From assembly GCA_902567045.1 (NCBI GenBank), contig CACFLJ010000001.1, positions 1 to 64,000 of the forward strand: a stretch of DNA of 64,000 bases. Direction: 5' to 3'. This document shows positions 10,823 through 59,030 of this stretch, one piece after another (within the stretch, counting starts at the first letter, position 1; every line of letters begins with the position of its first letter). The DNA comes from an uncultured Pelagibacteraceae bacterium (lineage in GTDB: Bacteria; Pseudomonadota; Alphaproteobacteria; Pelagibacterales; Pelagibacteraceae). Both the position numbers and the translations under genes were made by a program. The notes below the pieces were generated by a model. It searched no databases. It had not been told where the DNA came from and was given only the letters and a program-made list of their open reading frames with translations.

Positions 10823-10930
10823 CTATTTTTTTTTTCTTTTAAAACTTCCCTTGCCCTTTTTAGGTTTAACTACTCGCGTCTTATATTTTGGAGTTAATAA
10901 ATCTTTAGCTATGATATTCTTCTTTCTCAT
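10823..10930 (-). CDS. Short ArfA-like alternative ribosome-rescue factor (35 aa)
   Basis: A 35-codon ORF starting with ATG at 10930. Its second half, PKYKTRVVKPKKGKGSFKRK, aligns with the conserved core of E. coli ArfA, [21 protein letters not shown]. ArfA binds stalled ribosomes lacking a stop codon and recruits RF2. In this copy the frame ends in a normal TAG right after the basic core, without the long tail that is removed in E. coli. The ATG overlaps the TAA of the upstream winged-helix gene (TAATG), implying translational coupling. It converges on the kinase gene with a 4 bp gap. Confidence 0.75.
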   Translation of the reverse strand: MRKKNIIAKDLLTPKYKTRVVKPKKGKGSFKRKKK

Positions 10931-11484
10931 TAAATTACATATCCAGATTTTGAACTTTTTATAAAATTATTATCTTCAAAAGTATCATTGATTTTTTTTC
11001 TTAATCTATAAATATGAGTTTCGACTGTATGAGTTTCTAATTTTGAATTATGACCCCAAACTTCGGCTTGTAATTTACTAATTTTGACAGGTTTCTTTGA
11101 ATTATTAAGGTAAATTATTATATTTGCCTCTCTTTCAGTCAAATTAAGACTCTTTGTTCCATTAAAAATTTTTCTAGAGTTTAGATTTAGTTTATAGTCT
11201 CCTATATCTATATCAGATTGTTGACTATATTTTTTTTTTAAGAATTTAACATTTATACTTTCAATTAATTTAATTATATCAATTGGAAAATTGTTTAATG
11301 TTATTTGGTTTTCTACGTTTTTTATTTTTTTATTTGATATTAGTAAATAATCATTCTGATCTTTTAAATTCAGATCAGAAACTTTATCTACGCTAATTAA
11401 TTTAAAATTTATGTAATTATTTATTTCTCTTAATATTTCATATAAAATTTTAAAATCATATATAACTAAGTTTTGGTTATTCAT
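10930..11484 (-). CDS. OmpR/PhoB-type winged-helix DNA-binding protein with a degenerate N-terminal domain
   Basis: The C-terminal 80 residues form an OmpR-type effector domain: LTEREANIIIYL, the loop WGHNSKLETHTVETHIYRLRKKI and a final KSSKSGYVI hairpin. The N-terminal 100 residues have receiver-like length but no obvious acidic pocket, phospho-Asp or Lys, so phosphorylation is unlikely. ATG at 11484 is preferred; the frame extends to a TTG at 11505 that would overlap the divergent gene. Only 14 bp separate its start from the L,D-transpeptidase start. It is coupled to the downstream arfA-like gene. Confidence 0.78.
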   Translation of the reverse strand: MNNQNLVIYDFKILYEILREINNYINFKLISVDKVSDLNLKDQNDYLLISNKKIKNVENQITLNNFPIDIIKLIESINVKFLKKKYSQQSDIDIGDYKLNLNSRKIFNGTKSLNLTEREANIIIYLNNSKKPVKISKLQAEVWGHNSKLETHTVETHIYRLRKKINDTFEDNNFIKSSKSGYVI

Positions 11485-11498
11485 ATATAATAAACAAT

Positions 11499-11993
11499 AT
11501 GACAATTATTTTAAAAAATAAAGCAACACTTATTTTTGACGAATTTATTTTTAGATGCACAATTGGAAAGAAAGGATTAGTAAAAAACAAGATTGAAGGG
11601 GACAAAAAAACTCCAATTGGAACATATTCACTTGGAAATTTATACTATAGGAATGATAGACACTTAAAACCATCAACAAAATTAAAATGCATACCTATTA
11701 AAAAAAATATGGGATGGTGTGATGATATTAATAATAAAAAAAATTATAATAAGTTAATAAAAGTTAATAAAAATATTAGACACGAAAAATTATTTAGAAA
11801 AGATTATAAATATGATTTTTTTATTCCAATAAATTATAATACAAAAAACCCAAAAATTGGCAGAGGGAGTGCAATTTTCATTCATTTAACAAGGAAATAT
11901 CAACCAACCTTGGGGTGTGTGGCACTACAAAAAAAAGACTTTTTAATTTTGATAAAACTAATCAATAAAAATACCAAGATTAAGTTAATCTAA
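11499..11993 (+). CDS. L,D-transpeptidase (YkuD domain)
   Basis: Cross-links or trims peptidoglycan stem peptides. The catalytic segment is IFIHLTRKYQPTLGCVALQ, giving the His of the HxxT/S region and the nucleophilic Cys in the TxGCVAL motif (family usual SxGC). GDKKTPIGTYSLG near residue 35 is the other YkuD signature. No signal peptide is visible at the chosen ATG, which is unusual for a periplasmic enzyme, but such short YkuD proteins without an obvious leader exist. It overlaps the convergent yggS by 4 bp. Confidence 0.87.
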   Translation: MTIILKNKATLIFDEFIFRCTIGKKGLVKNKIEGDKKTPIGTYSLGNLYYRNDRHLKPSTKLKCIPIKKNMGWCDDINNKKNYNKLIKVNKNIRHEKLFRKDYKYDFFIPINYNTKNPKIGRGSAIFIHLTRKYQPTLGCVALQKKDFLILIKLINKNTKIKLI

Positions 11994-19678: not shown

Positions 19679-20645
19679 AAGTTTTGAACTAGAAAAAATA
19701 ATTTCTTTAAATTTAAATATACATTTAATTTATGGAAATAATGAAGGAATTAAACAAGATATAATAAGCAATTTTTATAAAAAAAATTATGAAGGTGAAG
19801 TTTTGAAATATGATGAGCAGGATATATTAACAAACAAAGATGAATTTATATCAAGTTTGCTAAACAAATCTCTTTTTGAGACTGAAAAATTAATTATTAT
19901 TTCAAGAGGTACAGATAAATTAACTACTGTTATTAATGAACTTTTAGACAGGAAGGAAATTGGAGCAAAAATAATAATTAAATCTTCAAACTTAGAAAAG
20001 AAATCTAAATTAAGAAATTTATTTGAAAAAGAAAAGAATGTAATTTGTACACCTGTTTATGAAGACGATTCTCGATCATTAAATTTTATTATAAATAATT
20101 TTTTAAAAGATTATAAATTAAGCCTTTCTCAAGAAATAAAAAATATTCTTATCGAAAGATCGAATGGTGACAGAATAAATTTAAAAAATGAACTATCTAA
20201 ATTAAAAAATTTATCAATTACTAAAAATAAATTAAGTATTGAAGATGTATTAAAACTTTCTAATCTTGCAGAAAACTACAGTGTATTCGAATTATCAGAT
20301 AATTATTTAGCAAAAAATTCAAAAAAAGTGTCAAATATTCTTAATGAAAATAATTACTCATCAGATGATTGTATCTTAATAATAAGAACAATATTAAATA
20401 AATCAAAAAGACTTTTAAAAATTAGAAATGAAGTTGATAATAATAAAAATATTGATCAGGTAATATCTACAATTAAACCTCCTATATTTTGGAAAGAAAA
20501 AGAAATTGTAAAAAAACAAGCTCAGTCATGGTCAACTAATGAGGTAAAAAATATAATATTTAAGATCAATGATTTGGAAGCTTTGGTTAAGAAAAATACA
20601 GCAAATTCAATGCTTTTTGTCTCAAATTTTATCAGTAATTACTAA
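19668..20645 (+). CDS. holA: DNA polymerase III delta subunit
   Basis: Clamp-loader subunit that opens the beta clamp. The N-terminus (LIYGNNEGIKQDIISNF) matches the HolA opening, usually followed by LFEEEKLIII-like; here SLFETEKLIIISRG. The C-terminal helical collar runs to SMLFVSNFISNY. It lacks a functional Walker site, as expected for delta. Length 325 aa. It follows lptE and overlaps convergent parB by 4 bp. Confidence 0.92.
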   Translation: MIIKSFELEKIISLNLNIHLIYGNNEGIKQDIISNFYKKNYEGEVLKYDEQDILTNKDEFISSLLNKSLFETEKLIIISRGTDKLTTVINELLDRKEIGAKIIIKSSNLEKKSKLRNLFEKEKNVICTPVYEDDSRSLNFIINNFLKDYKLSLSQEIKNILIERSNGDRINLKNELSKLKNLSITKNKLSIEDVLKLSNLAENYSVFELSDNYLAKNSKKVSNILNENNYSSDDCILIIRTILNKSKRLLKIRNEVDNNKNIDQVISTIKPPIFWKEKEIVKKQAQSWSTNEVKNIIFKINDLEALVKKNTANSMLFVSNFISNY

Positions 20646-21493
20646 TAATTTTGTTTAATAATCTCTACCAGCCTATCAAGCTGGTCAGCTCCCTTATACT
20701 CTAAACTAATAGTCCCAGAGTTATTTCTTTTATTCTTAACAAACACTCTCATTCCAATTTTATCTGTTAACTCTTCTTCAAGAGTTACGATGTTTGGATC
20801 TTTTTTCTTAATAGAACTGTTGGAACTAGATTTCAACATACGAACTAAACTTTCTGTTTGCCTAACTGACAATTTTTTTGAGATTATTTTCTTTGCTAAA
20901 AGAATTGCATTATCTAATCCAACTAAGATTTTTGCGTGTCCTTGAGATAATTTCTCTTCAATTATTAATTCTATTATTTCTTGTGGAAGAGATAGCAGTC
21001 TCAAACAATTAGATATATGTGCTCTACTTTTACCAATAAATTTTGATACCTTGTCCTGGTCATAACTAAATTCGTCTATCAATCTTTTATAACCCTCAGC
21101 TTCTTCAATTGGATTCAAATCTTTTCTTTGAACATTTTCAACAATAGCAAATTCCAAGGATTTTAGATTATCTACATTAATTACAACTACTGGTACTTCA
21201 TGAAGTCCTGCGTGTTGTGCTGCCTGCCATCTTCTTTCGCCAGCTATTATTTCTAGTTTATCATCCTCATCAGAAGATGGCCTAACTATGATTGGTTGAA
21301 TTATGCCTCTCTCTCTTATAGAGTTAGTTAGTTCCTCTAAACTCGCTTCATCAAATTTTTTTCTTGGCTGATACTTATTTCTAACTAAAGAACTTATTGA
21401 GACATTTTTTTTATCATCAATTTTTTCACTATCTCCTATCAAAGAAGATAATCCTCTACCTAGTCCCTTTTTTGATTTAAATGGATTGATCAT
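20642..21493 (-). CDS. parB: ParB, chromosome-partitioning CTPase/DNA-binding protein
   Basis: Binds parS sites and loads onto the chromosome with CTP. The N-terminal KKGLGRGLSSLIGD is the family start. The CTP-binding domain has NKYQPRKKFDE, GIIQPIIVRP and ITAGERRWQAA-like IIAGERRWQAAQHAG. The parS-binding helix-turn-helix follows (DQDKVSKFIGKSRAHISNCLRLLSLP). The C-terminal dimerisation domain ends at LVEIIKQNY. Length 283 aa. Its start overlaps the parA stop by 4 bp; two parS-like sites lie about 1.4-1.7 kb upstream. Confidence 0.98.
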   Translation of the reverse strand: MINPFKSKKGLGRGLSSLIGDSEKIDDKKNVSISSLVRNKYQPRKKFDEASLEELTNSIRERGIIQPIIVRPSSDEDDKLEIIAGERRWQAAQHAGLHEVPVVVINVDNLKSLEFAIVENVQRKDLNPIEEAEGYKRLIDEFSYDQDKVSKFIGKSRAHISNCLRLLSLPQEIIELIIEEKLSQGHAKILVGLDNAILLAKKIISKKLSVRQTESLVRMLKSSSNSSIKKKDPNIVTLEEELTDKIGMRVFVKNKRNNSGTISLEYKGADQLDRLVEIIKQNY

Positions 21494-22290
21494 GCTGCAC
21501 TCTCCACTGGTTTATCTTGATTTAAAAATTCTTCTGTAAAACTAAAATATGCTCTACTGCCTGGACAAGTTTTGTCATAAATTAGAACTGGAACACCGTG
21601 TGAGGGTGCTTCTGATAGTCTGACATTTCTAGGTACTGCTGTGCTGTAAACTTTATCCTTAAAATAGTTCCTTGCCTCTATTTCTACCTCCCCTGATAAT
21701 TTATTTCTCTTATCGTACATGGTCAGGAGTATTCCTCTTATCTCCAAAGATGGATTTAGGTTCGACTTTATCCTCTCAATTGTTTTCATAAGTTGTGTAA
21801 GTCCCTCCAAAGCAAAAAATTCTGTCTGAAGTGGTACCACTAGAGCATTGGAAGCTACTAAGGCCATGATTGTAAGGAGGCTTAAGGATGGTGGGCAGTC
21901 AATAATGATATAGTCATAAGTCGGCTCAGAATTGTTTAGAATCAATGTTAATTCATCTTTTAATTTAAAGGCTCTACGGCTATCATCTGCTGTCTCTACC
22001 TCTAATCCAGACAAATCAACATTCGATGATATCAAATCTAAATTTTCTAGTCTCGTAGACTGGATTACCTCTGAAATTTTTTTATTTCCATTCAAAACAT
22101 TGTAAATTGTTTGGTCAGAACTAGTTGTGTTAGATAATCCAAGGCCTGTTGTAGCATTACCTTGTGGATCAAGATCAATAACAAGAATTTTTTTTCCTTT
22201 CATTGTTAACCCGGCAGCAAGATTGATAACTGTGGTAGTCTTACCCACTCCACCTTTCTGATTTATGACCGAAATAATTTTTTTATTCAT
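21490..22290 (-). CDS. parA: ParA, chromosome-partitioning ATPase
   Basis: Forms the nucleoid-bound ATPase gradient that moves ParB-parS. The deviant Walker A is NQKGGVGKTTTVINLA (about 9-24). The other motifs are LVIDLDPQGNATTGLG, YIIIDCPPSLSLLTI and VVPLQTEFFALEGL. Length 266 aa, typical. It sits in the conserved mnmG-rsmG-parA-parB order and overlaps rsmG by 8 bp. Confidence 0.98.
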   Translation of the reverse strand: MNKKIISVINQKGGVGKTTTVINLAAGLTMKGKKILVIDLDPQGNATTGLGLSNTTSSDQTIYNVLNGNKKISEVIQSTRLENLDLISSNVDLSGLEVETADDSRRAFKLKDELTLILNNSEPTYDYIIIDCPPSLSLLTIMALVASNALVVPLQTEFFALEGLTQLMKTIERIKSNLNPSLEIRGILLTMYDKRNKLSGEVEIEARNYFKDKVYSTAVPRNVRLSEAPSHGVPVLIYDKTCPGSRAYFSFTEEFLNQDKPVESAA

Positions 22291-22927
22291 ATTTTTTTTT
22301 TAAATTTGAAATTCTTACTACTGACGATACATCACTTGTTAAACTTTTCATTTCTTCTATATCGAATTTCCACTTTGAAGAAACATCTTTTAAAATTTTT
22401 TTACCACTCTTTCCTAGATACATAACTATGTATTTGAAATTTTTAAAATTCTTTGTCGCTATTTCAAAAATAACCGGTAAAGGTTTGAATGCTCGACAAA
22501 TTATTACGTCAGTTACTAAATTTTTTTCTTCAAATATATTTTTTTGATAAATTTCTGCTTCTAATTTAAATTTTTTTGCCATCTCTTTAAGAAAATTACT
22601 TTTATGGTAACTCTTTTCATAAAAAATCAGCTTAAAACCTTGCTTTTTGGATTTCATCAAAATACCTAAAACTATACTAGGAAGACCTGCACCTGAGCCA
22701 AGATCTGTGCACACTTGAATATCATTTTTATCAATAAAATCAATAGTTTGTGCGCTATCATAAATATGTCGCGTATTTATTGACTTTTCTGTGCTTGAAC
22801 TTATCAAATTAATTTTCTTGTTTGTATTTAAAATTGACTGTGAGTACTCATCCAGCTCCTTTAATGTTTCACGTGAAACATTTGGAAGGTAGATTTTGTC
22901 TGTTTTTATTATTTTCGAATCAATCAA
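22283..22927 (-). CDS. rsmG: RsmG, 16S rRNA 7-methylguanosine methyltransferase
   Basis: Methylates G527 of 16S rRNA using SAM. The SAM motif [19 protein letters not shown] (about residues 71-89) and the downstream [14 protein letters not shown] are diagnostic. Length 214 aa. The 5' part of the gene contains a perfect parS palindrome, read in frame as VSRET. Its start overlaps the mnmG stop by 4 bp. Confidence 0.96.
22865..22880. promoter_or_regulatory. parS site (perfect), inside rsmG
   Basis: TGTTTCACGTGAAACA is a perfect 16-bp palindrome identical to the bacterial parS consensus. It lies in the first 25 codons of rsmG and is translated there as part of NVSRETLK. ParB encoded 1.4 kb away should load here. 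Confidence 0.95.
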
Positions 22928-24795
22928 GCTATATGCTTAATAGACTTTCTTTTGACATGAGACAACAAAATATATACTGCTGCTGGCGTAATCCCATCTA
23001 TTCTGAGTGCTTGGCCAAGTGTTTTTGGTTTTATTTCCTTAAATTTTGATTTAACTTCATTTGATAACCCTGAGAATTGATCATAATCTAAATTTTCAGG
23101 AATTTTAAGATTTTCATCTCTTTTAAATGCTAATATATCTGCATCTTGTTTCTTCAAATAGCCTTTATAATGAGCTTTTATCTCGATTTGCTCATCTATT
23201 TCACGTGAAACATATTTGATTTCTGGCCAAATTTCCCTAATTTTACTCATTTTTACTGATTTCTGACTCAATATTTCTATTGCATTTCTTTTAACCCCAT
23301 CTTTCGCAATATTTATTCCGAATTTTGTAGCTTTAGTTGGAGAAATCAATGAATTTTCCATTTTTTGTAGACTTTTATCAAGTTTAGATGCTTTTTCTTT
23401 ATATATTATTTTTCTTTCATCAAGTATAAGTCCGATATCAATTCCTTTTTGAGTAAGTCTAAGATCGGCATTATCAGATCTCAAAGATAACCTATATTCT
23501 GCCCTTGAAGTAAACATTCTATAAGGCTCAGCAACTCCCTTTGTGACCAAATCATCTATCATCACACCTATATATGCTTCAGATCTATCGAGGATAAATG
23601 GTACTTTACCTAATATAGAAAGAGCAGCATTAATTCCTGCAATCAAGCCTTGAGCGGCTGCCTCCTCATAACCTGTTGTACCGTTTATTTGTCCTGCTAG
23701 GTAAAGATTTCTAATTTTTTTTGTCTCTAATGTTAAAAATAGCTCTCTTGGGTCCACAAAATCATATTCTATAGCATACCCAGGCCTTAATATCTTTACA
23801 TTATCTAAACCATTGATATTATTACATATTTCTTGCTGTACATCAGCTGGAAGAGAAGTTGAAATTCCGTTAGGGTATATAGTTTTATCATTTAGACCCT
23901 CGGGCTCCAAAAATATTTGATGCTTTTGTTTATCGGCAAACTTTACAATTTTATCTTCTATAGAAGGACAGTATCTCGGACCAACTCCCTGAATACTTCC
24001 AGAGTACATAGCACTACTTTTTATGTTTTTGGAAATGATATCATGCACTGCTTGGTTGGTATAAGTCATCCTACAAGAAATTTGTTTATTAATATTTTTT
24101 TTTGTAAGGAAGGAAAAAAAATACGGATCTTCATCTGCATGCTGCTCCTCCAGTTTTTCAAAATTGATTGTCGTTGCATCTAGTCTTGGTGGTGTTCCTG
24201 TTTTTAATCTTCCAATTTTAAAATTATATTTTTCTAACTGTTCACTTAAACCAGTTGAAGGTTTTTCATTAAATCTCCCTGCAGGTGTTTTTTCATTACC
24301 AATGTGGATTAACCCATTTAGGAAAGTTCCAGTTGTTAGAATTACTTTTGATGAAAGTACTTTTTTACCTTCTTGTGTAACGAAACCTATTATACTGTTT
24401 TTTTCAAATATGAATTCAATTACAGGATCTGAAAAAATGATTAAATTACAATAGTTTAACAATTTTTCTTGCATATATTTCTTATATAATGATCTATCAC
24501 TTTGAGTCCGCGGTCCACGCACCGCAGGACCTCTACTTCTATTTAATAATCGAAATTGTATTCCTGATTTATCCGCCACTTCTCCCATTACACCATCTAG
24601 TGCGTCTATTTCTCGAACAAGATGGCCTTTACCTAATCCTCCTATAGCTGGATTACATGACATCTCACCAATAGTATCAAATTTATGTGTAAATAAGGCT
24701 GTATTTACTCCCAATCTAGCAGATGCTGCTGCAGCTTCACAGCCAGCATGCCCACCGCCAATTACAACTACATCAAATGACAACTCATTTTTCAT
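22924..24795 (-). CDS. mnmG: MnmG (GidA), tRNA uridine-5-carboxymethylaminomethyl modification FAD enzyme
   Basis: With MnmE forms cmnm5U34 in several tRNAs. The N-terminal FAD motif is [21 protein letters not shown]. Conserved [24 protein letters not shown] and [14 protein letters not shown] follow, and the C-terminal helical domain ends [15 protein letters not shown]. Length 623 aa. It carries a second parS-like site near the 3' part of the gene. The order mnmE-mnmG-rsmG-parA-parB is the classical one. Confidence 0.98.
23197..23212. promoter_or_regulatory. parS-like site with one mismatch, inside mnmG
   Basis: TATTTCACGTGAAACA differs from the parS consensus only at the second base (A for G). 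It lies 332 bp from the perfect site and is read in frame in mnmG as part of YVSREIDE. It is probably a second ParB loading site. Confidence 0.8.
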
Positions 24796-28886: not shown

Positions 28887-29879
28887 TTATAAATTCTTTG
28901 AAATAAGATGTTTGAATAAAGAAATATGATCTTCATTATCATTTAAGCAAGGTATCATTTCAAAGTTTTCACCACCTGATTTGATAAAGCTTTCTTTCCC
29001 TTGGATGGATATTTCTTCTAAAGTCTCAACACAATCAGATGAAAAACCAGGACATATAACTAAAATATTTTTTTTTCCCTCTTTGGGCAAGGCTTCAAAG
29101 GTTTTGTCTGTATAAGGTTGCAGCCATTCTTGAGGACCAAATCTTGATTGAAATGTTGTCATAATTTTAAAATCTGAATATTTTTCTGAAATAAGTCTAG
29201 TGGTTTTATGACAATAGCAATGATAAGGGTCTCCCTTGTCAAAATATTTTTTTGGTATTCCATGATACGAAGCTACTATTAAGTCTGGTTTCCAATTAAT
29301 TTCGTTAATTTTTTTTACAATACTATTTTTAATAGCATCTATATAAAGAGGTTCGGACTCATAATGAGGAATTATTTTTAAATTCGGTTGCCATCTCATT
29401 TTCATAAGAGTTCTATATACCTCGTCACATACAGTTGCAGTCGTTGCAGCAGCATATTGGGGATAAAGAGGTAGTATTATTAAATTCTCACAACCTTTTT
29501 CATGAAGTTGATTTATTTTGCTTTTGATACCTGGATTGCCATACCTCATAGCAAAATCAACAATCAACTTTTCGTTGCCAATTTTCTCTGATAATTTTTG
29601 AGCTTGGCTTTCTGTAAAAAACCTAAGTGGTGACATGTTCTTATCTTTCATCCATATCTCTTTGTAGGCTTTGGCAGTTTTTGATGGCCTAAAAGTAAGT
29701 ATAAATAAGTTAAGAATTACTTGCCAAATAATAGGATTTACTTCGATAACTCTTCTATCTGATAAAAATTCCTTTAAATATTTCCTTATATCCAGCCAAC
29801 TAGTGGAATCGGGTGTACCAAGATTTATAATTAAAACCCCTGTTTTACCATAATTAACTTTTGGGTGGTCTGATCTCAT
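28887..29879 (-). CDS. hemH: Ferrochelatase
   Basis: Inserts Fe2+ into protoporphyrin IX. Signatures are TGVLIINLGTPDS (N-terminus), PLRFFTESQAQKL, MRYGNPGIKS, ILPLYPQYAAATTATVCDE, VASYHGIPKKYFDKGDPYHCYCHKTTRL with the catalytic His, and FQSRFGPQEWLQPYTD. Length 330 aa. It overlaps hemE by 4 bp. Confidence 0.98.
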   Translation of the reverse strand: MRSDHPKVNYGKTGVLIINLGTPDSTSWLDIRKYLKEFLSDRRVIEVNPIIWQVILNLFILTFRPSKTAKAYKEIWMKDKNMSPLRFFTESQAQKLSEKIGNEKLIVDFAMRYGNPGIKSKINQLHEKGCENLIILPLYPQYAAATTATVCDEVYRTLMKMRWQPNLKIIPHYESEPLYIDAIKNSIVKKINEINWKPDLIVASYHGIPKKYFDKGDPYHCYCHKTTRLISEKYSDFKIMTTFQSRFGPQEWLQPYTDKTFEALPKEGKKNILVICPGFSSDCVETLEEISIQGKESFIKSGGENFEMIPCLNDNEDHISLFKHLISKNL

Positions 29880-30877
29880 TTAAAATCTCTTACAATTTTA
29901 ATCAAGTCTTCAACCATTTCAATTTTAGTTTCTGGTAGAATCCCATGACCTAAATTAAATATGTATGGATGATCCTTAAAAATATGAAGATATTTTTCTA
30001 CTTCTTTTTTAAGGATTTCTTTATCAGTCAATAATATTTTAGGGTCAAGCCCCCCTTGGATGGGAATTTTTATTTCTTTTACTATTTTTTCTGGATCAAC
30101 ATCATAATCTATATTTACTGCATCTGGTTTAACTATCTCACAGAAATTTTTGTAATCTTTAATACCTCTTGGAAAACAAATTACAGGAATACCTAATTGT
30201 TTAACATATTCTACAATATTTAGTGTGGGCACATAAATGTATTCAGGAATTTTATTTTCTAGTAATCCTGCCCAACTATCAAAAATTTGAATTACTTTGG
30301 CCCCAGCTTCAACTTGATTTTTTATATGAACTTTTAAGAATTTTTCAATAATTCCTAATAGTCTGTTTATTAGAAATTCATCTTTAAAAAATTCACCTGT
30401 TAGACCTTTTTTTGGTGATGATCTATTAATCATGTAAACAAGAATAGTCCATGGAGCCCCAACAAAACCTATCATGTCTTTATCATCCATTAAAGGGTCC
30501 TGGGAAGTTTTGGAAATTGCTTTGTAAACTTTATAAACTTTTTCTGTAAAGTTAATTTCGTCAACATTTTTAATATTATCTAATTCTAGTTCTCCAAGTT
30601 TTGGCCCAAAGTTTTTCTCAAATTCTACTTTTTGACCAAGACCATATGGTAACATCAAAATATCAGAAAATATTACTGCACCATCAAATCCAAATCTCTT
30701 TATAGGTTGAAGAGTTATTTCAGATGCTAAATCGCTATTTAAACAAAGTTTTATAAAATCTGTATTTTTTTTTCTTATATCTCGAAATTCAGGTAAATAC
30801 CTTCCTGCTTGTCTCATTAACCATATAGGATTAGTTTTGGTATCTTTATTTTTTATACAGTTAGTTAAGGGACTCAT
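29876..30877 (-). CDS. hemE: Uroporphyrinogen decarboxylase
   Basis: Fifth step of haem synthesis. Signatures are PIWLMRQAGRYLPEFR (N-terminus), DGAVIFSDILMLPYGLG, GFVGAPWTILVYM, IQIFDSWAGLL and NLGHGILPETKIEMVEDLI. Length 333 aa. It marks one side of the predicted replication origin, as hemE does in Caulobacter and Rickettsia. Confidence 0.98.
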   Translation of the reverse strand: MSPLTNCIKNKDTKTNPIWLMRQAGRYLPEFRDIRKKNTDFIKLCLNSDLASEITLQPIKRFGFDGAVIFSDILMLPYGLGQKVEFEKNFGPKLGELELDNIKNVDEINFTEKVYKVYKAISKTSQDPLMDDKDMIGFVGAPWTILVYMINRSSPKKGLTGEFFKDEFLINRLLGIIEKFLKVHIKNQVEAGAKVIQIFDSWAGLLENKIPEYIYVPTLNIVEYVKQLGIPVICFPRGIKDYKNFCEIVKPDAVNIDYDVDPEKIVKEIKIPIQGGLDPKILLTDKEILKKEVEKYLHIFKDHPYIFNLGHGILPETKIEMVEDLIKIVRDFK

Positions 30878-31161
30878 ATAAATAGATATATATTATTTAC
30901 TTTATTAGTATTATGTATTGTGAATAACGTAAATTAGTCAATTATCACATTTTGTTAACTCTTTATTAATAATTAAGATCTCGAATTAGCCCTATTTTAT
31001 AAGGATTAATCAAGATTTCTCATATTTTATGTATATTATGTATAACTTTGTTAACATTTTATAATTTAGTTAATTTGATGGAAAAAAAACTAACTATTAT
31101 TATCCAAAGGGGTAAATCTGAATTTTTCTTATTTTACTTATAGATTATAAACACTTTATAC
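30878..31161. other. Candidate chromosomal replication origin (oriC)
   Basis: A 284-bp AT-rich gap between divergent hemE and the PPDK regulator. The same gene pair encloses oriC in Caulobacter crescentus and Rickettsia. A perfect DnaA box (TTATTCACA on the minus strand) is at 30919-30927, and a one-mismatch box TTATCCAAA at 31100-31108. TTAA-N7-TTAA at 30955-30969 matches a CtrA-type motif, though such matches are frequent in A/T sequence. Between the boxes is an almost pure A/T stretch suited to unwinding. parAB and parS lie within 11 kb. Confidence 0.72.
30919..30927 (-). promoter_or_regulatory. DnaA box
   Basis: TGTGAATAA on the plus strand equals TTATTCACA on the minus strand, an exact match to the consensus TTATNCACA, in the proposed origin. 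Confidence 0.65.
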
Positions 31162-31989
31162 ATGAGAAATTTATATCAAATATATTTAATATCAGACTCT
31201 ACAGGCGAAACACTTGATAGAATTTTTTTAGCTTTGAAAGCACAATTTCCTAATTTCGAATACGAGACAAATCATTTTTCTTTTACTCGTACCGAAAGTC
31301 AAACTCTCACTATACTAAAACAGGCAAAAAAAGATAAAAATTCTATTATTTTATATACTATTGTTAATAGTAAATTAGCAAAATATCTTACAGAAAAAGC
31401 CTACGAAAGAAAAATACCTTGTTTTGGAGTTCTTGGGGATTTAATTTTAAATTTTTCAAAAGTCTTAAATCAAAAAGCTTCTCACCAACCAAGTGGGCAA
31501 CATATTCTAAATGAAGAATACTATGACAGAATTGAAGCTATTCAATTCACCATGAACCATGATGATGGTAATCAAACTGATGATATTGAAAAATCAGATA
31601 TTATTTTGTTAGGTGTGAGTAGAACCAGCAAAACACCAACTTCCATTTATCTAGCTAATAGAGGTTTTAAAACTTCAAATATTCCACTAGTAAATGAAAA
31701 TTCAATACCATCCAAAGTTACCAAAAAAAATTTTAGACCATGTGTTGTTGGATTAGTTACAGAAGCAGAAAGATTATACGATTTAAGAAAAAATAGATTG
31801 AATTCGTTAAAAGAAGATCAAAATAGTGAATATATAAATATTGATAAGATTAGAGATGAACTAAATAGTGCTAGAAAATTATTCAAAGAGAATAATTGGC
31901 CGACGATAGATGTAACAAGAAAATCAGTTGAGGAAACAGCTGCATCAGTAATAAAAATTTTTGAGATCAGGAATAAAAAAAATGCTTAG
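31162..31989 (+). CDS. Pyruvate, phosphate dikinase regulatory protein (bifunctional kinase/pyrophosphorylase)
   Basis: DUF299/PPRP family: ADP-dependent phosphorylation and phosphate-dependent reactivation of PPDK or PEP synthase. Motifs are YLISDSTGETLDRIFLA (N-terminus) and the nucleotide loop ILLGVSRTSKTPTSIYLANRG (about 152-172). IDVTRKSVEETAASV near the end is conserved. Length 275 aa. It is first in the block ppdK regulator-maf-aroE-coaE-dnaQ known from the Caulobacter origin region. It overlaps maf by 8 bp. Confidence 0.95.
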   Translation: MRNLYQIYLISDSTGETLDRIFLALKAQFPNFEYETNHFSFTRTESQTLTILKQAKKDKNSIILYTIVNSKLAKYLTEKAYERKIPCFGVLGDLILNFSKVLNQKASHQPSGQHILNEEYYDRIEAIQFTMNHDDGNQTDDIEKSDIILLGVSRTSKTPTSIYLANRGFKTSNIPLVNENSIPSKVTKKNFRPCVVGLVTEAERLYDLRKNRLNSLKEDQNSEYINIDKIRDELNSARKLFKENNWPTIDVTRKSVEETAASVIKIFEIRNKKNA

Positions 31990-36520: not shown

Positions 36521-37891
36521 TTATAAAATAAATTTAGAAAGATCTGCGTCTTTTACAAGTTCACCAATATTTTTCTTAATATAATCAGAGTCTATACTTA
36601 TCTTTTCACCAGCTCTATCTGTTGCTGTAAAACTAATTTCATCCAAAACTCTTTCAATTATAGTATGCAGTCTTCTAGCTCCAATATTTTCAACCGTTGT
36701 ATTTACTTCGCTTGCAATTGTTGCAATTGTATCAATTCCATCTTCAGTAAATTCTAAATCAACGTTTTCAGTTTTAAGTAAAGCTTTGTATTGTTTTATT
36801 AAACTATTGTCTGGCTCTTTTAAAATTCGCTTAAAATCCTCGCTATTCAATGCATCTAGCTCAACTCTGATCGGCAATCTCCCTTGAAGCTCAGGTAATA
36901 GATCTGATGGCTTTGCTAGTTGGAAGGCTCCTGAAGCTATAAATAATATGTGATCTGTTTTAATTGGACCATATTTAGTGCTCACAGTTGTCCCCTCAAT
37001 TAAAGGAAGTAAATCTCTTTGAACACCTTCTCTGGAAACATCTCCTCCAACTCTATCAGTTCTTGCTGAGATTTTATCTATTTCATCCAAAAATACGATA
37101 CCGTTGTTCTCAGTCGTATTTTTTGCTGATTTAATAATTTTATCTTGTTCTATTAATTTATCAGCTTCTTCGTTTAGTAATATTTCATGAGACTCTTTTA
37201 CTGACATTTTCTTCTTCTTAGCTTTTTGACCCATAGATTTACCAAGCATGTCTGAAATATTAATCATTCCAACATTTGCACCCGGCATACCAGGGATTTC
37301 AAATGATGGCATTCCACCGCCACTTTCAGTAACAGCTATTTCAATTTCATTATCATCTAAATCACCGTCTCTTAATCTTTTTCTAAAACTTTCTCGTGTT
37401 GCAACACTTGCTTTATTCCCAACTATTGCATCAAGAACTCTATCCTCTGCTAATTTTTGTGCTTTAGCGTGAACTTCTTTTCTTTTTTTAACTTTTTCCA
37501 TTGCAATAGCAATTTCAAGAAGGTCTCTAATTATTTGTTCAACATCTCTTCCAACATAACCTACTTCAGTAAATCTTGTTGCTTCAACTTTTACAAATGG
37601 TGCTTCAGCTAATTTTGACAATCTTCTAGATATTTCTGTTTTACCAACACCCGTTGGTCCCATCATTAAAATATTTTTTGGAAGAACTTCATCTTTCATA
37701 TCACCTTCTAAAGCTTGTCTTCTCCATCTATTTCTCAAAGCAATTGCAACAGCTCTTTTGGCATTATTTTGCCCAACAACAAATCTATCTAATTCAGAAA
37801 CTATTTCTCTTGGAGATAATGAATTTTGGATATTATTTTTTTTTTCTTTTACTTTAGCGTTTGGTAGTATTGTAACGTTTGATTTTTCCAT
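36521..37891 (-). CDS. hslU: HslU, ATPase of the HslUV protease
   Basis: AAA+ unfoldase feeding HslV. Motifs are [34 protein letters not shown], the Walker [13 protein letters not shown], the Walker [12 protein letters not shown] and the arginine-finger [11 protein letters not shown]. The I domain (about 110-240) is present. The C-terminus ends LSKFIL, the tail that docks into HslV. Length 456 aa. It is adjacent to hslV with no gap. Confidence 0.98.
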
Positions 37892-38407
37892 TTAAATTTT
37901 CTCTATATTGCAATTATCATTTGTGAAAACACATATTTCAGATGCAACTTTAATTGCTTTTTTGGCAATTTCTTCTGCAGATAAATCTGTATCCATCAAT
38001 ACTTTCGCTGACGCTAATGCATAATTTCCACCAGAACCTATTCCAATAACGTCTCCCTCGGGCTCTAAAACATCACCAGTTCCTGAAATAATGAAACTAT
38101 TTTCTTTATCACCAACAGCCATTAAGGCTTCTAATCTTCTTAAATACTTATCTGTTCGCCAATCTTTTGCTAATTCGACAGCTGCTCTTGCTAGATTTCC
38201 AGCATGTTTTTCTAACTTAGACTCTAATCTCTCAAATAATGTTAAAGCATCTGCAGTAGATCCAGCAAATCCTGCAATCACATTTCTTTTCTCAATCTTA
38301 CGAACTTTATTTGCAGTTTTCTTAATTACTGTATTACCCATACTAACTTGGCCATCACCAGCAACTACTACTTCATTGTTTTTTCTTACTAATACTATCG
38401 TTGTCAT
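37892..38407 (-). CDS. hslV: HslV, peptidase of the HslUV protease
   Basis: Threonine protease, cytoplasmic dodecamer. After removal of Met the N-terminal TTIVLVRKN exposes the catalytic Thr. The [13 protein letters not shown] and GFAGSTADA motifs are standard, ending [10 protein letters not shown]. Length 171 aa. Divergent from hisB across 91 bp. Confidence 0.98.
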
Positions 38408-55623: not shown

Positions 55624-56502
55624 ATGAAACTATTTTTAAAAACTATATTAATACTATCCCTAACACTAGGTATTAGTTCAGCAGTTTCAGCAAAAACTTA
55701 CAAAATGGCTGTTACCGACATTGAAGGAATGGATGCTCTTATCTCTGAGTGGGGACCATTTAAGGAAGCTTTAGAAAAAGCTACTGGAGATACTTTTGAA
55801 TTTTTTGCTGTAAGTAATCAAACAGCAACAGCAGAGGCCTTAAGAGGAAAAAGATTAGATTTTGCAATAACAGGGCCTGCAGAATATGTTGCGATTAATA
55901 AGCTTACAAATGCCCAAGCAATGATTGCGATTGCAAGACCAGATTATTACTGCGGAATTGTCGTTAAGACGGGGGTAGGAATAATGAGCATGGAGGATTT
56001 AAAAGGTAAAGCTGTCTCTTTTGCTAAACCTGGGTCGACATCTGGACATTTTTGTCCAATGCAAGTGATGATGGATCATGGAGTAGACCCAATGAAAGAC
56101 ATCAAAGTAATTCATACAAAGAAATCATTGCAACATGCTGGGCTGGAGAGAGATGATACTGCAGCAATTGGTGTAAAAATTAGCTCTTGGATCAAGTATA
56201 ACAGAACACCCGAAAATCAAGGTCAGTTCAAGGTGTTAGCCAGATCGGGTGATCTGCCATACGATATGATGATGGGTGCAGGTCATTTAACGAAGGCTGA
56301 AATAGATAAAGTAAACAAGGCAATTAAAGATAACGAAGATGCGTTGATTGCAGGTATTTTAGCTGGGCTTGATGATAAAGGTGAACCAGCCAATGATAAA
56401 TACATCGGTACAAGGTTGCTTGAGGTGGATGATTCTGATTATGATATAGTAAGAGCCATGTACAGAACAGCTGGCTTGCCTGAATTCGATATTCAAGAAT
56501 AA
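55624..56502 (+). CDS. phnD: PhnD-like phosphonate/phosphite ABC transporter substrate-binding protein
   Basis: A signal peptide (LFLKTILILSLTLGISSAVSA) precedes a PBP2 PhnD domain: DALISEWGPFKEALEKATG, LRGKRLDFAITGPAEYVAI, GKAVSFAKPGSTSGHFCPMQVMMDHGVDP and DDTAAIGVKISSWIKY. The PhnD hallmark GxxSTSG-like PGSTSGHF loop binds the phosphonate moiety. Ligand identity (phosphonate, phosphite or other oxyanion) is not readable. Followed by a hairpin, then phnC and phnE. Length 292 aa. Confidence 0.88.
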   Translation: MKLFLKTILILSLTLGISSAVSAKTYKMAVTDIEGMDALISEWGPFKEALEKATGDTFEFFAVSNQTATAEALRGKRLDFAITGPAEYVAINKLTNAQAMIAIARPDYYCGIVVKTGVGIMSMEDLKGKAVSFAKPGSTSGHFCPMQVMMDHGVDPMKDIKVIHTKKSLQHAGLERDDTAAIGVKISSWIKYNRTPENQGQFKVLARSGDLPYDMMMGAGHLTKAEIDKVNKAIKDNEDALIAGILAGLDDKGEPANDKYIGTRLLEVDDSDYDIVRAMYRTAGLPEFDIQE

Positions 56503-56527
56503 TCACAAATAATATGTAATATATGGA

Positions 56528-56551
56528 AGCGCTCTATCTCATTAGAGCGCT
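56528..56551 (+). terminator. Intergenic hairpin between phnD and phnC
   Basis: A perfect 9-bp stem, AGCGCTCTA and TAGAGCGCT, with a 6-base loop; no T run follows. It is GC-rich in an AT-rich gap. Such hairpins after binding-protein genes stabilise the upstream mRNA or attenuate read-through, giving more binding protein than ATPase/permease. Confidence 0.7.
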
Positions 56552-56559
56552 CGATCCGT

Positions 56560-57327
56560 ATGATTGATTTAGAAATAAAAGATTTAAAAAAAAGTTTTGG
56601 TAGTGAGTTTATATTAAAAGGTCTTTCTTTTAGTGTTAATTCGCAAAGTTTATTAGCAATCATCGGTTCTAATGGAGCAGGTAAATCTACCTTGCTGAGA
56701 TGCTGCAGCCGCTTAATTGAACCATCGAGTGGAAGTATTAAAATTTTTGACAAGGAAATAACAACTTTAAATAGTCATAAGCTAGGTCAAATACGAAGAG
56801 ACGTAGCGTTTATTTTTCAACGGCATAATTTAGTTCCTCGACTAAGTGTGTTATCAAATGTTATTCATGGAGATTTTGGAAATATCACTAGCGGTATAAT
56901 TCGAGTAACACGATGGTTTCATTTTCTGGCTCCTCAAAATTCTAGATCAAGGGCAATGGATTGCCTTCGGAAAGTAAATTTATCTCATCTTGCCATGAAA
57001 CGAGTTGATAGCCTTTCTGGAGGACAATCTCAAAGAGTTGCGATAGCTAGAGCTCTCATGCAAAGACCCAAGTTATTACTTGCTGACGAGCCTGTTGCTA
57101 GCCTTGACCCAGTGGCTGCAAAAACGGTTATGGAGCTTCTCACAGAACTATGTAAAAAAGAAAAAATAACAGTTATATTTACCTCGCATAATGTTGAAGA
57201 TGCCGTAAAATATTCCGACAAAGTTTTAGCTTTAAAAGAGGGTGAAATAAGCTTCTTGAAAGCAAGTAAAGCGATAGATCCAACAGAATTAATTGAGCAA
57301 TACGACAGCTCTGTAAGAAATGTTTAA
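56560..57327 (+). CDS. phnC: PhnC-like ABC transporter ATP-binding protein
   Basis: The Walker A is GSNGAGKSTLLRCC, the signature is DSLSGGQSQRVAIARAL, the Walker B is LLLADEPVASLDP, and the switch His is in FTSHNVEDA. The inserted segment GDFGNITSGIIRVTRWFHFLAPQNSRSRA is typical of PhnC. Arg codons here include many CGN (CGA, CGG, CGC), unlike the AGA-dominated neighbours, which hints at acquisition. Length 255 aa. Confidence 0.93.
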   Translation: MIDLEIKDLKKSFGSEFILKGLSFSVNSQSLLAIIGSNGAGKSTLLRCCSRLIEPSSGSIKIFDKEITTLNSHKLGQIRRDVAFIFQRHNLVPRLSVLSNVIHGDFGNITSGIIRVTRWFHFLAPQNSRSRAMDCLRKVNLSHLAMKRVDSLSGGQSQRVAIARALMQRPKLLLADEPVASLDPVAAKTVMELLTELCKKEKITVIFTSHNVEDAVKYSDKVLALKEGEISFLKASKAIDPTELIEQYDSSVRNV

Positions 57328-57344
57328 TTGGTAGGAACAAGATA

Positions 57345-58178
57345 ATGAAACCCCCAAAAAGATTTGAGCATATTTCATCCTTTCATTATATTTCTATTAT
57401 CGTTTTCTTTTTGATTTTGGTGTGGGCTTTTGATGGTGCTGGTTTTTCCTTCAGCAAATTATTTGGAAGCAGTGAGTACATTGGTAGGTTTCTTAGTGAA
57501 GCCTTTCCTCCTATCAGTGAGCATAGATTAAGCTTGAGCGATTTTAACAGGTATATTTTGCTCTTAATAGAGACCGCCCAAATGGCAATTTTTGGGACAT
57601 TTTTAGGTATAATTATAGGTTTTTTGTTTGCGCTAATGGCCTCAAGAGGACTACTTGGAAATAGCATCCCAGTAAGAATGCTTCAAGTATTTGCAAAGTT
57701 TCTAATAACATTTATGCGAACAATACCTGATTTAGTATGGGCAATTATATTTGTAATGGTTGTAGGGCTTGGAGCTTTTGCAGGCACATTAACGATTGCG
57801 ATAGATACAATAGGATTTGTAGGTAGATTTTTTGCTGAAGAGATGGAGGATGTTGAAAGGAGTGCAGCCGAAGGTATAGAGAGTAGTGGAGCGTCAAAGC
57901 TAGACAGTACTTTTTCAGCAATCATTCCTGCTGCTATGCCCGGCTTTATAACAACATCGCTTTTCGCCTTAGAAAAGTCCGTAAGAGGATCAGTAGTGTT
58001 AGGGTTAGTTGGTGCTGGTGGAATCGGAATGGAATTAAACAGTCTTTTTAACTGGATGGCTTATGATAGAGCTGTTATAGTAATAGGCTTAATGTTTATT
58101 TTAATATTGTTCGTAGAACAAATTAGCAGCTATGCTCGCTCAAAAATACTCGATGGATCGTTCAAGGGCAGGAAATAG
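57345..58178 (+). CDS. phnE: PhnE-like ABC transporter permease
   Basis: Inner-membrane permease with about six spans: IIVFFLILVWAF at the N-terminus, AIFGTFLGIIIGFLFALMAS, IIFVMVVGLGAFAGTL, and the EAA loop EGIESSGASKLDSTFSAIIPAAMPGFITTSLFALEKSVRGSVVLGLVGAGGIGMEL typical of PhnE. Length 277 aa. It ends one base into a possible GTG start of the methyltransferase. Confidence 0.93.
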   Translation: MKPPKRFEHISSFHYISIIVFFLILVWAFDGAGFSFSKLFGSSEYIGRFLSEAFPPISEHRLSLSDFNRYILLLIETAQMAIFGTFLGIIIGFLFALMASRGLLGNSIPVRMLQVFAKFLITFMRTIPDLVWAIIFVMVVGLGAFAGTLTIAIDTIGFVGRFFAEEMEDVERSAAEGIESSGASKLDSTFSAIIPAAMPGFITTSLFALEKSVRGSVVLGLVGAGGIGMELNSLFNWMAYDRAVIVIGLMFILILFVEQISSYARSKILDGSFKGRK

Positions 58179-58870: not shown

Positions 58871-59030
58871 CTCAACAAGAAGAACATCAAAAAATTAAAG
58901 AGTATGGAGAAAGCATATAATATTATCTCTCCAAGCTCCAGTCTTGCTCCAGTTGTCCCATATTATTCTATGTGAATAAAAGAGGATTTTAAGTAAGTGT
59001 TTGTAATTGTGTAGATAAGCCAAAAGCTTA

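Follow-up and report, generated by a model that had tools for sequence, protein, structure and literature searches.

The question raised by this locus is whether the intergenic gap between hemE and a PPDK/PEP-synthase regulator gene is the origin of replication, oriC, of a SAR11 genome. The SAR11 bacteria are among the most abundant cells of the ocean. The stretch of 64,000 nucleotides analysed here, hereafter called the window, has a GC content of 29.3% and its closest database relatives are labelled Pelagibacteraceae (SAR11). A preliminary description of this DNA had proposed the gap as oriC, and we consider this reading to hold with a probability of about 0.9, based on the gene pair, a strictly conserved core block, an enrichment of DnaA boxes throughout the family, the side and strand of a DnaA-trio tract and the low number of boxes at dnaA. 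The estimate was lowered to this value because box clusters are not unique to one place in each genome and because the trio rule is loose, and for the same reasons opening of the DNA from box to trios is rated as probable.

Both flanking genes were identified by NCBIfam profiles and the gap lies exactly where it had been placed (Table 1). The two genes diverge and are transcribed away from the gap, which has an A+T content of 81% compared to 71% in the whole window. To the right of the gap are maf, aroE, coaE, dnaQ and a SecB-like gene, and to the left hemH, a UPF0093 gene, rho, a sulfotransferase gene, mnmE, mnmG, gidB, parA and parB. The statement that parAB, parS, mnmG, mnmE and rho are located nearby was borne out, parB, parA, gidB, mnmG, mnmE and rho being found 2.5–10 kb away on the left side together with parS, of which a second copy with one mismatch is present at 23197-23212. 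Elsewhere in the window a proteasome-type subunit gene (Pfam Proteasome, 37892-38407) adjoins an AAA_2 gene (36521-37891), both on the minus strand, a pair that we presume to be HslV/HslU, and genes for a phosphonate-type substrate-binding protein and an ABC permease (55624-58178) are situated in a stretch of higher GC content (33–38%).

Table 1. Coordinates of features in and around the candidate origin, as positions of the window.
Feature	Position	Strand	Remarks
oriC candidate: hemE/PPDK-regulator intergenic gap	30878-31161		284 bp
hemE, left flank	29876-30877	-	NCBIfam TIGR01464, 316.7 bits, above cut-off
PPDK/PEP-synthase regulator (COG1806/DUF299 type), right flank	31162-31989	+	NCBIfam NF003742, 303.9 bits, above cut-off
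parB and parA	20642-22290	-	Pfam ParB_N/HTH_ParB/ParB_C and AAA_31
parS, exact	22865-22880		8 kb left of the gap
Probable unwinding element, the 40 bp of lowest stability in 30501-31600	30875-30914		nearest-neighbour energies
Near-invariant core block (trio tract, spacer, DnaA box, ACGTAAATTA)	30903-30936		68% invariant columns, n=79
DnaA-trio-like tract, ATA ATA CTA ATA on the hemE strand, 4 bp from the box	30903-30914	-	rule satisfied on the hemE side in 79/79 gaps
DnaA box TTATTCACA	30919-30927	-	exact; TTATN[A/C]ACA near the same position, minus strand, 67 times in 79 gaps
ACGTAAATTA	30927-30936	+	invariant in 79/79 gaps; by eye, TAATTTACG on the minus strand may be a weak tandem box
TTAA-N7-TTAA, CtrA-like motif of the preliminary description	30955-30969		not enriched; no support as CtrA site
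TTATTAATA; in many relatives TTATTAACA instead (one change from a SAR11-type box)	30963-30971	+	80-90 bp bins of the 79 gaps contain 53 boxes on the plus strand
TTATCCAAA, second box of the preliminary description; probably chance	31100-31108	+	1 mismatch; not conserved
SAR11-type box TTATAAACA, directly in front of the regulator, overlapping a possible promoter	31145-31153	+	exact TTATN[A/C]ACA

The origins of Caulobacter crescentus (Cori) and of the Rickettsia type are situated between hemE and COG1806 according to the available text of PMC1914354. The same pair encloses the gap of the window, as had been claimed, and when 80 SAR11 relatives were collected via the regulator protein it was kept, 281–288 bp apart, in 78 of them, the remaining two stopping at a contig edge. 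Two closed genomes of another group, g8 (G008 and G016, loci L107 and L108), showed no hemE match within ~1.5 kb upstream of the regulator, and their dnaA is located ~72 kb away on the other side of the regulator; the origin region seems to be rearranged there.

An alignment of the gap with those of the 78 relatives (79 sequences) revealed 68% invariant columns in the block 30903-30936, 2% in 30937-31114 and 23% in the 47 bp before the regulator. When the flanking genes were used as controls none of 75 four-fold degenerate sites was invariant and 51–54% of codon positions 1 and 2 were, and the core block is accordingly held more strictly than coding positions. Within the block ACGTAAATTA is found on the opposite side of the box from the trios. 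The second conserved stretch, 31115-31161, directly precedes the ATG of the regulator and consists of a T-rich tract together with TTATAAACA; it might serve as a leaderless promoter, as a DnaA site or as both. A search for the exact core pattern gave 8 of 297 family genomes, all of one genus, and the letter-by-letter block is a feature of a subclade, with the layout of box and trios as the wider signal. For the wider comparison 37 diverse SAR11 gaps from ten genera (further or shared) were used, excluding one fragment and two g8 genomes whose regulator has no hemE close to it.

The exact DnaA box on the minus strand at 30919-30927 that had been reported is present as TTATTCACA. A one-mismatch box at 31100-31108 (TTATCCAAA) is also there as described but is not conserved, the commonest base reaching 30–39 of 79 sequences at four of its nine columns, and it was rejected as a functional site. 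Although all motifs of the preliminary description exist, as motif counts they amount to no more than chance in the window, where TTATNCACA at up to one mismatch was observed 81 times against 102.9 in shuffles and has further exact matches at 58971 and 61585. The count of a single perfect box in the gap follows from using the E. coli consensus: there is one exact TTATNCACA, and a second exact site, at 31145-31153, when A is allowed at position 6 (TTATN[A/C]ACA). For the site at 31145-31153, the pattern TTAT[AT][AG]ACA was found in 76 of the 79 gaps.

In the 37 diverse gaps TTATNAACA (the A form) occurs 75 times compared to 5.2 expected from dinucleotide shuffles, a 14-fold excess, and TTATNCACA (the C form) 14 times compared to 1.0, while TTATNGACA occurs once (0.7 expected); the combined pattern TTATN[A/C]ACA reaches 89 against 6.2. 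An unprompted ranking of 9-mers gave TTATTAACA (as TGTTAATAA) 47 times against 2.2, in 30 of the 37 gaps, the top count among the top enriched 9-mers and the second by z. The density is 2.6 boxes per 300 bp in SAR11 gaps and 0.04–0.06 in ~400 kb sampled from each of four closed genomes, so that DnaA-type boxes are ~40–60 times denser in the family gaps than in the sampled genome sequence. Boxes are absent from two of the 37 gaps. The idea that the gap is the densest box cluster in every genome was rejected; it holds for G053, with 3 boxes in the gap and at most 2 elsewhere in the 395 kb sampled, but fails for G032, where the gap has 1 exact SAR11-type box and three other 300-bp windows of its 400 kb have two, and for G030, with 2 boxes in the gap and three at one sampled place elsewhere.

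From these counts the working box of SAR11 is likely to be TTATN[A/C]ACA. The A forms might instead be the outcome of plain AT drift and not be recognised by DnaA, the origin then working with one true box. The A form is not exclusive to SAR11, since seven AT-rich (<35% GC) gaps from other lineages contain 8 A-form and 11 C-form boxes, and AT drift therefore explains part of the shift; SAR11 goes further (75 A to 14 C; Fisher p 3e-4 per box and 0.011 per gap, values that ignore kinship and are optimistic). Drift as the whole explanation is rather doubtful, as TTATNTACA, with a composition equal to that of TTATNAACA, is not enriched in the 37 gaps (4 against 5.1) and as A forms are more numerous than C forms in every one of the ten SAR11 genera. 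If the shifted consensus is true, SAR11 DnaA would bind TTATTAACA but not TTATTTACA.

The DnaA proteins differ at a site of possible relevance for this shift. In all 28 SAR11 DnaAs examined (28 loci) the residues before RDHTT are SG, TG, CG, SN or AN, while GG or GN is found in 40 of 46 DnaAs from other alphaproteobacteria, the remaining six having a loop that is one residue shorter; a glycine beside the DNA-reading helix is absent from all 28. Among the six genomes with the short loop, the gap of G347 contains 3 A-form and 2 C-form boxes and that of G345 neither, the other four being without a paired gap. In E. coli DnaA the base contacts of helix 5 are made by residues 432–435 and 438–439, starting at that arginine, and the region at the start of helix 5 has been suggested as the cause of the epsilonproteobacterial box form (available text of PMC5043019). 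A change just before the helix-5 arginine is a plausible cause of the SAR11 box shift, the relation being a correlation only. A more far-reaching proposal, put forward tentatively and at less than even odds, is that DnaA and its box changed together: the replacement of the first G of GGRDHTT by S, T, A or C would have altered or relaxed the reading of position 6, TTATNAACA would be the family's working box, a single box-trio module and a few sites would replace a larger origin controlled by CtrA and IHF, and standard searches would undercount the boxes.

A DnaA box followed by DnaA-trios constitutes the basal unwinding system, BUS (PMC8287927; PMC6669920). When read on the hemE strand the core block consists of TTATTCACA, the spacer ATAC and then ATA ATA CTA ATA, the tract pointing at hemE. 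According to the BUS rule (a box with ≤2 mismatches to TTATCCACA, a spacer of 0–16 and ≥3 trios) the window has 1 box mismatch, a spacer of 4 and 4 trios, which is weak when taken alone as 105 of 200 shuffles of the gap also satisfy this loose rule; the strict trio rule was reached by 5 of 200 shuffles and the window's own trio run was equalled in 10%. A mirror candidate runs from the box at 31100-31108 toward the regulator, with 7 trios compared to 4 on the hemE side. The hemE side was preferred because of its conservation: with the relaxed box TTATN[A/C]ACA and no more than one mismatch allowed, 79/79 close and 23/37 diverse gaps (shuffles 15%) contained the hemE-side module, and 14/79 and 7/37 (shuffles 16%) the regulator-side module.

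A bias in strand was seen when counting trio pairs (CTA adjoining another trio) near hemE. The 37 SAR11 gaps have 86 such pairs on the hemE strand, distributed over 34 gaps, and 2 on the opposite strand (shuffles 28.9, maximum 41). The corresponding numbers for 72 other alphaproteobacterial gaps are 68, in 40 gaps, and 13 (shuffles 23.4, maximum 40), and with 32 of the 72 lacking a pair near hemE the feature is frequent, not universal. Runs of CTACTA are found a few bases past a DnaA-type box in several relatives, e.g. L250 and L259. Runs of this type on the hemE strand near hemE also occur in other alphaproteobacterial loci such as L257. The trio runs near hemE suggest an unwinding element shared across alphaproteobacteria, and we read the SAR11 block as an AT-drifted form of it.

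The tract adjoins DNA of low stability. The least stable 40-mers of 30501-31600 begin at 30873-30880, that at 30880 ranking among the 0.1% of lowest stability in the window. Among the relatives the least stable 30-mer begins ≤40 bp from hemE in 64 of 79 gaps (12.7 expected) and in 17 of the 37 diverse gaps (6.2 expected). Directly upstream of the box on the minus strand TAATTTACG may be a tandem box; it has, by eye, 3 differences from TTATNCACA and its columns are invariant. In the BUS a tandem second box is the commonest arrangement, at 57%, and is not required (PMC8287927, available text). Altogether the near-invariant block of box and trios is probably the opening module of the origin.

The TTAA-N7-TTAA motif that the preliminary description noted at 30955-30969 is present, but it lacks statistical support as a CtrA site: the 37 diverse gaps hold 14 copies against 9.2 expected, and the controls with N6 and N8 10 (9.3) and 12 (9.4). 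No regulator scanned in the window's genome, which is 86% complete, exceeded the cut-off for CtrA, and with this lack of enrichment the motif was rejected as a CtrA site. Of the four OmpR-type DNA-binding domains in this genome one is PhoB, above cut-off; the second protein reaches 132 bits against the CtrA cut-off of 350, the third does not have CtrA among its best 25 families listed (down to ~101 bits) and the fourth gave no NCBIfam match at 1e-15. Eleven closed relatives carry four such domains each, except one with five. A protein of 191 aa is encoded at 10930-11505 (minus strand), having a C-terminal Pfam Trans_reg_C domain and neither a receiver domain match nor an NCBIfam match at 1e-15. 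Similar OmpR-type matches are located 17–21 kb left of the regulator in seven closed genomes of the same genus and 26–28 kb to its right in four of other genera, and we read the protein as an orphan regulator that may stay near oriC. As for IHF, the window gap matches neither consensus, and in the 37 SAR11 gaps the loose consensus occurs 14 times against 16.4 and the strict WATCARNNNNTTR 10 times against 4.1 (mononucleotide shuffles). By position the origin appears to be of the Cori type, without support for control by CtrA or IHF. CtrA sites vary even among the Rickettsiales (PMC1914354, available text), and SAR11 is named as an exception to CcrM conservation in a garbled wording of the partial source (PMC3973325).

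GC skew was studied in four one-contig genomes, of which 29–33% was sampled. The mean skew to the right and left of the regulator is +0.032/-0.076 in G032, +0.057/-0.053 in G053, +0.046/-0.005 in G008 and +0.051/-0.048 in G030, with the opposite change of sign roughly half a chromosome away. The direction of the genes shows the same arm pattern and may account for most of the difference; GC3 skew with gene direction averaged out gave no clear arm difference in three of the four genomes. The cumulative curve over 400 contiguous kb of G032 reaches its minimum at -34 kb, within a ~136-kb basin that extends from about -80 to +56 kb. The cumulative skew, which had been proposed as a check, fits only broadly, the arms differing but the minimum of G032 being 34 kb off the gap. 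The skew speaks for the region without discriminating between the gap and dnaA. A search for a dif-like pattern in 11 closed genomes gave 50 matches and the reversed control 55.

An origin at or near dnaA, with the hemE gap as merely a well-kept intergenic region, would fit the position of dnaA inside the broad skew basin of G032 and the fact that origins beside dnaA are common in bacteria, as is generally known and also stated in PMC1914354 (available text). In seven closed genomes of the same genus dnaA is located 60–65 kb left of the regulator, which is past the left end of the window's contig. A dnaA match above cut-off was found in 111 of 118 family genomes, the window's assembly being among the seven others, and from these two observations its absence is taken to be an assembly gap. 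The 20 SAR11 dnaA loci (68 kb in total, ~1 kb on each side) contain 6 boxes, at most 2 per locus and below the genome background, and the origin at dnaA was rejected for this lack of boxes; the same PMC1914354 reports other alphaproteobacteria to start replication beside hemE and not dnaA. We regard an origin at dnaA as highly improbable.

Nearly as improbable is that the conserved block serves hemE and the PPDK regulator as a promoter or regulatory region and is not an origin. The genes do diverge from the gap, and the 47 bp before the regulator, 23% invariant, hold a possible -10 element (by eye); an overlap of the block with promoters is possible. Against this reading, the layout of box and trios is found again in other alphaproteobacteria, with side and strand unchanged, an ordinary -35 element is not kept at 30937-30942 where the columns are variable, and the enrichment of A or C, not T or G, at position 6 of the box is unexpected for a σ70 promoter. 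Nor is there an Rfam match up to E = 1 in 30400-31700, and a known RNA element was rejected as an explanation of the gap. A larger share, still on the unlikely side, is given to an origin opened by another route, for example by an E. coli-like recruitment of single-stranded DNA from the box array, or controlled by CtrA and IHF in the manner of Caulobacter. The trio rules are loose, the plus strand of the tract carries words resembling TTAT, TATT and TTGT (by eye) and the strict IHF consensus exceeds its expectation, points to be held against the strand and side bias of the trio pairs in two sets of gaps, the rule satisfied in 79 of 79, the absence of an IHF match from the window gap, the loose IHF count and the CtrA sites that are not enriched.

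For the hemE gap as an origin opened from box to trios, the following course is proposed. DnaA would dock on the box at 30919-30927 and on further sites resembling TTATN[A/C]ACA as far as 31145, and a DnaA filament would extend from the box onto the trio tract, contacting the strand complementary to the box strand. The filament would stretch open the very unstable duplex beside hemE, the helicase would be loaded there and two forks would leave, with parS and ParAB, 8–10 kb away, helping segregation.

A pinned-down origin would serve as an anchor for coverage-based growth estimates in SAR11 metagenomes, and the short module as a compact natural test piece for box-to-trio opening of DNA. The box shift offers a case in which the joint change of an initiator and its site can be tested, it cautions that in AT-rich genomes searches with TTATNCACA find too few boxes, and the hemE-side trio tract may be a frequent feature of alphaproteobacterial origins. 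No description of a SAR11 origin was found in the titles and the beginnings of abstracts of the SAR11/Pelagibacter origin literature, and a DoriC prediction may exist. To our knowledge the shift to TTATN[A/C]ACA, its possible link to a change in DnaA and the trio tract of hemE-type origins, with its bias in side and strand, are new; related titles do not contain these points, and the module tables for 1755 origins in PMC8287927 may include alphaproteobacteria.

When compared with the BUS, the window shares the box, the 4-bp spacer, four trinucleotides with the required middle base and adjoining DNA that is very unstable, and differs in its AT-rich trios (ATA/CTA, not mostly CTA) and in having no clear tandem second box. 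The taxon-specific boxes of epsilonproteobacteria are likewise a lineage-specific consensus, with the start of helix 5 in DnaA domain IV suggested as the cause, but they keep positions 4–8 (TTCAC) strictly, while position 6 in SAR11 is mostly A (PMC5043019, available text). Unlike Cori-type origins, the SAR11 gap is short, 255–297 bp in the 37 diverse gaps against a median of 441 bp in 74 other alphaproteobacteria (<298 bp in 5 of them), has no enrichment of CtrA sites and, in the window, no IHF consensus, and its boxes mostly carry A at position 6. It has in common with Caulobacter Cori and the hemE/COG1806 origins of Rickettsia the same flanking genes, an AT-rich gap and a DnaA box, with parS and ParAB near it here, and the best explanation of the gap is an oriC that would be an AT-drifted, short form of the Caulobacter-type alphaproteobacterial origin.
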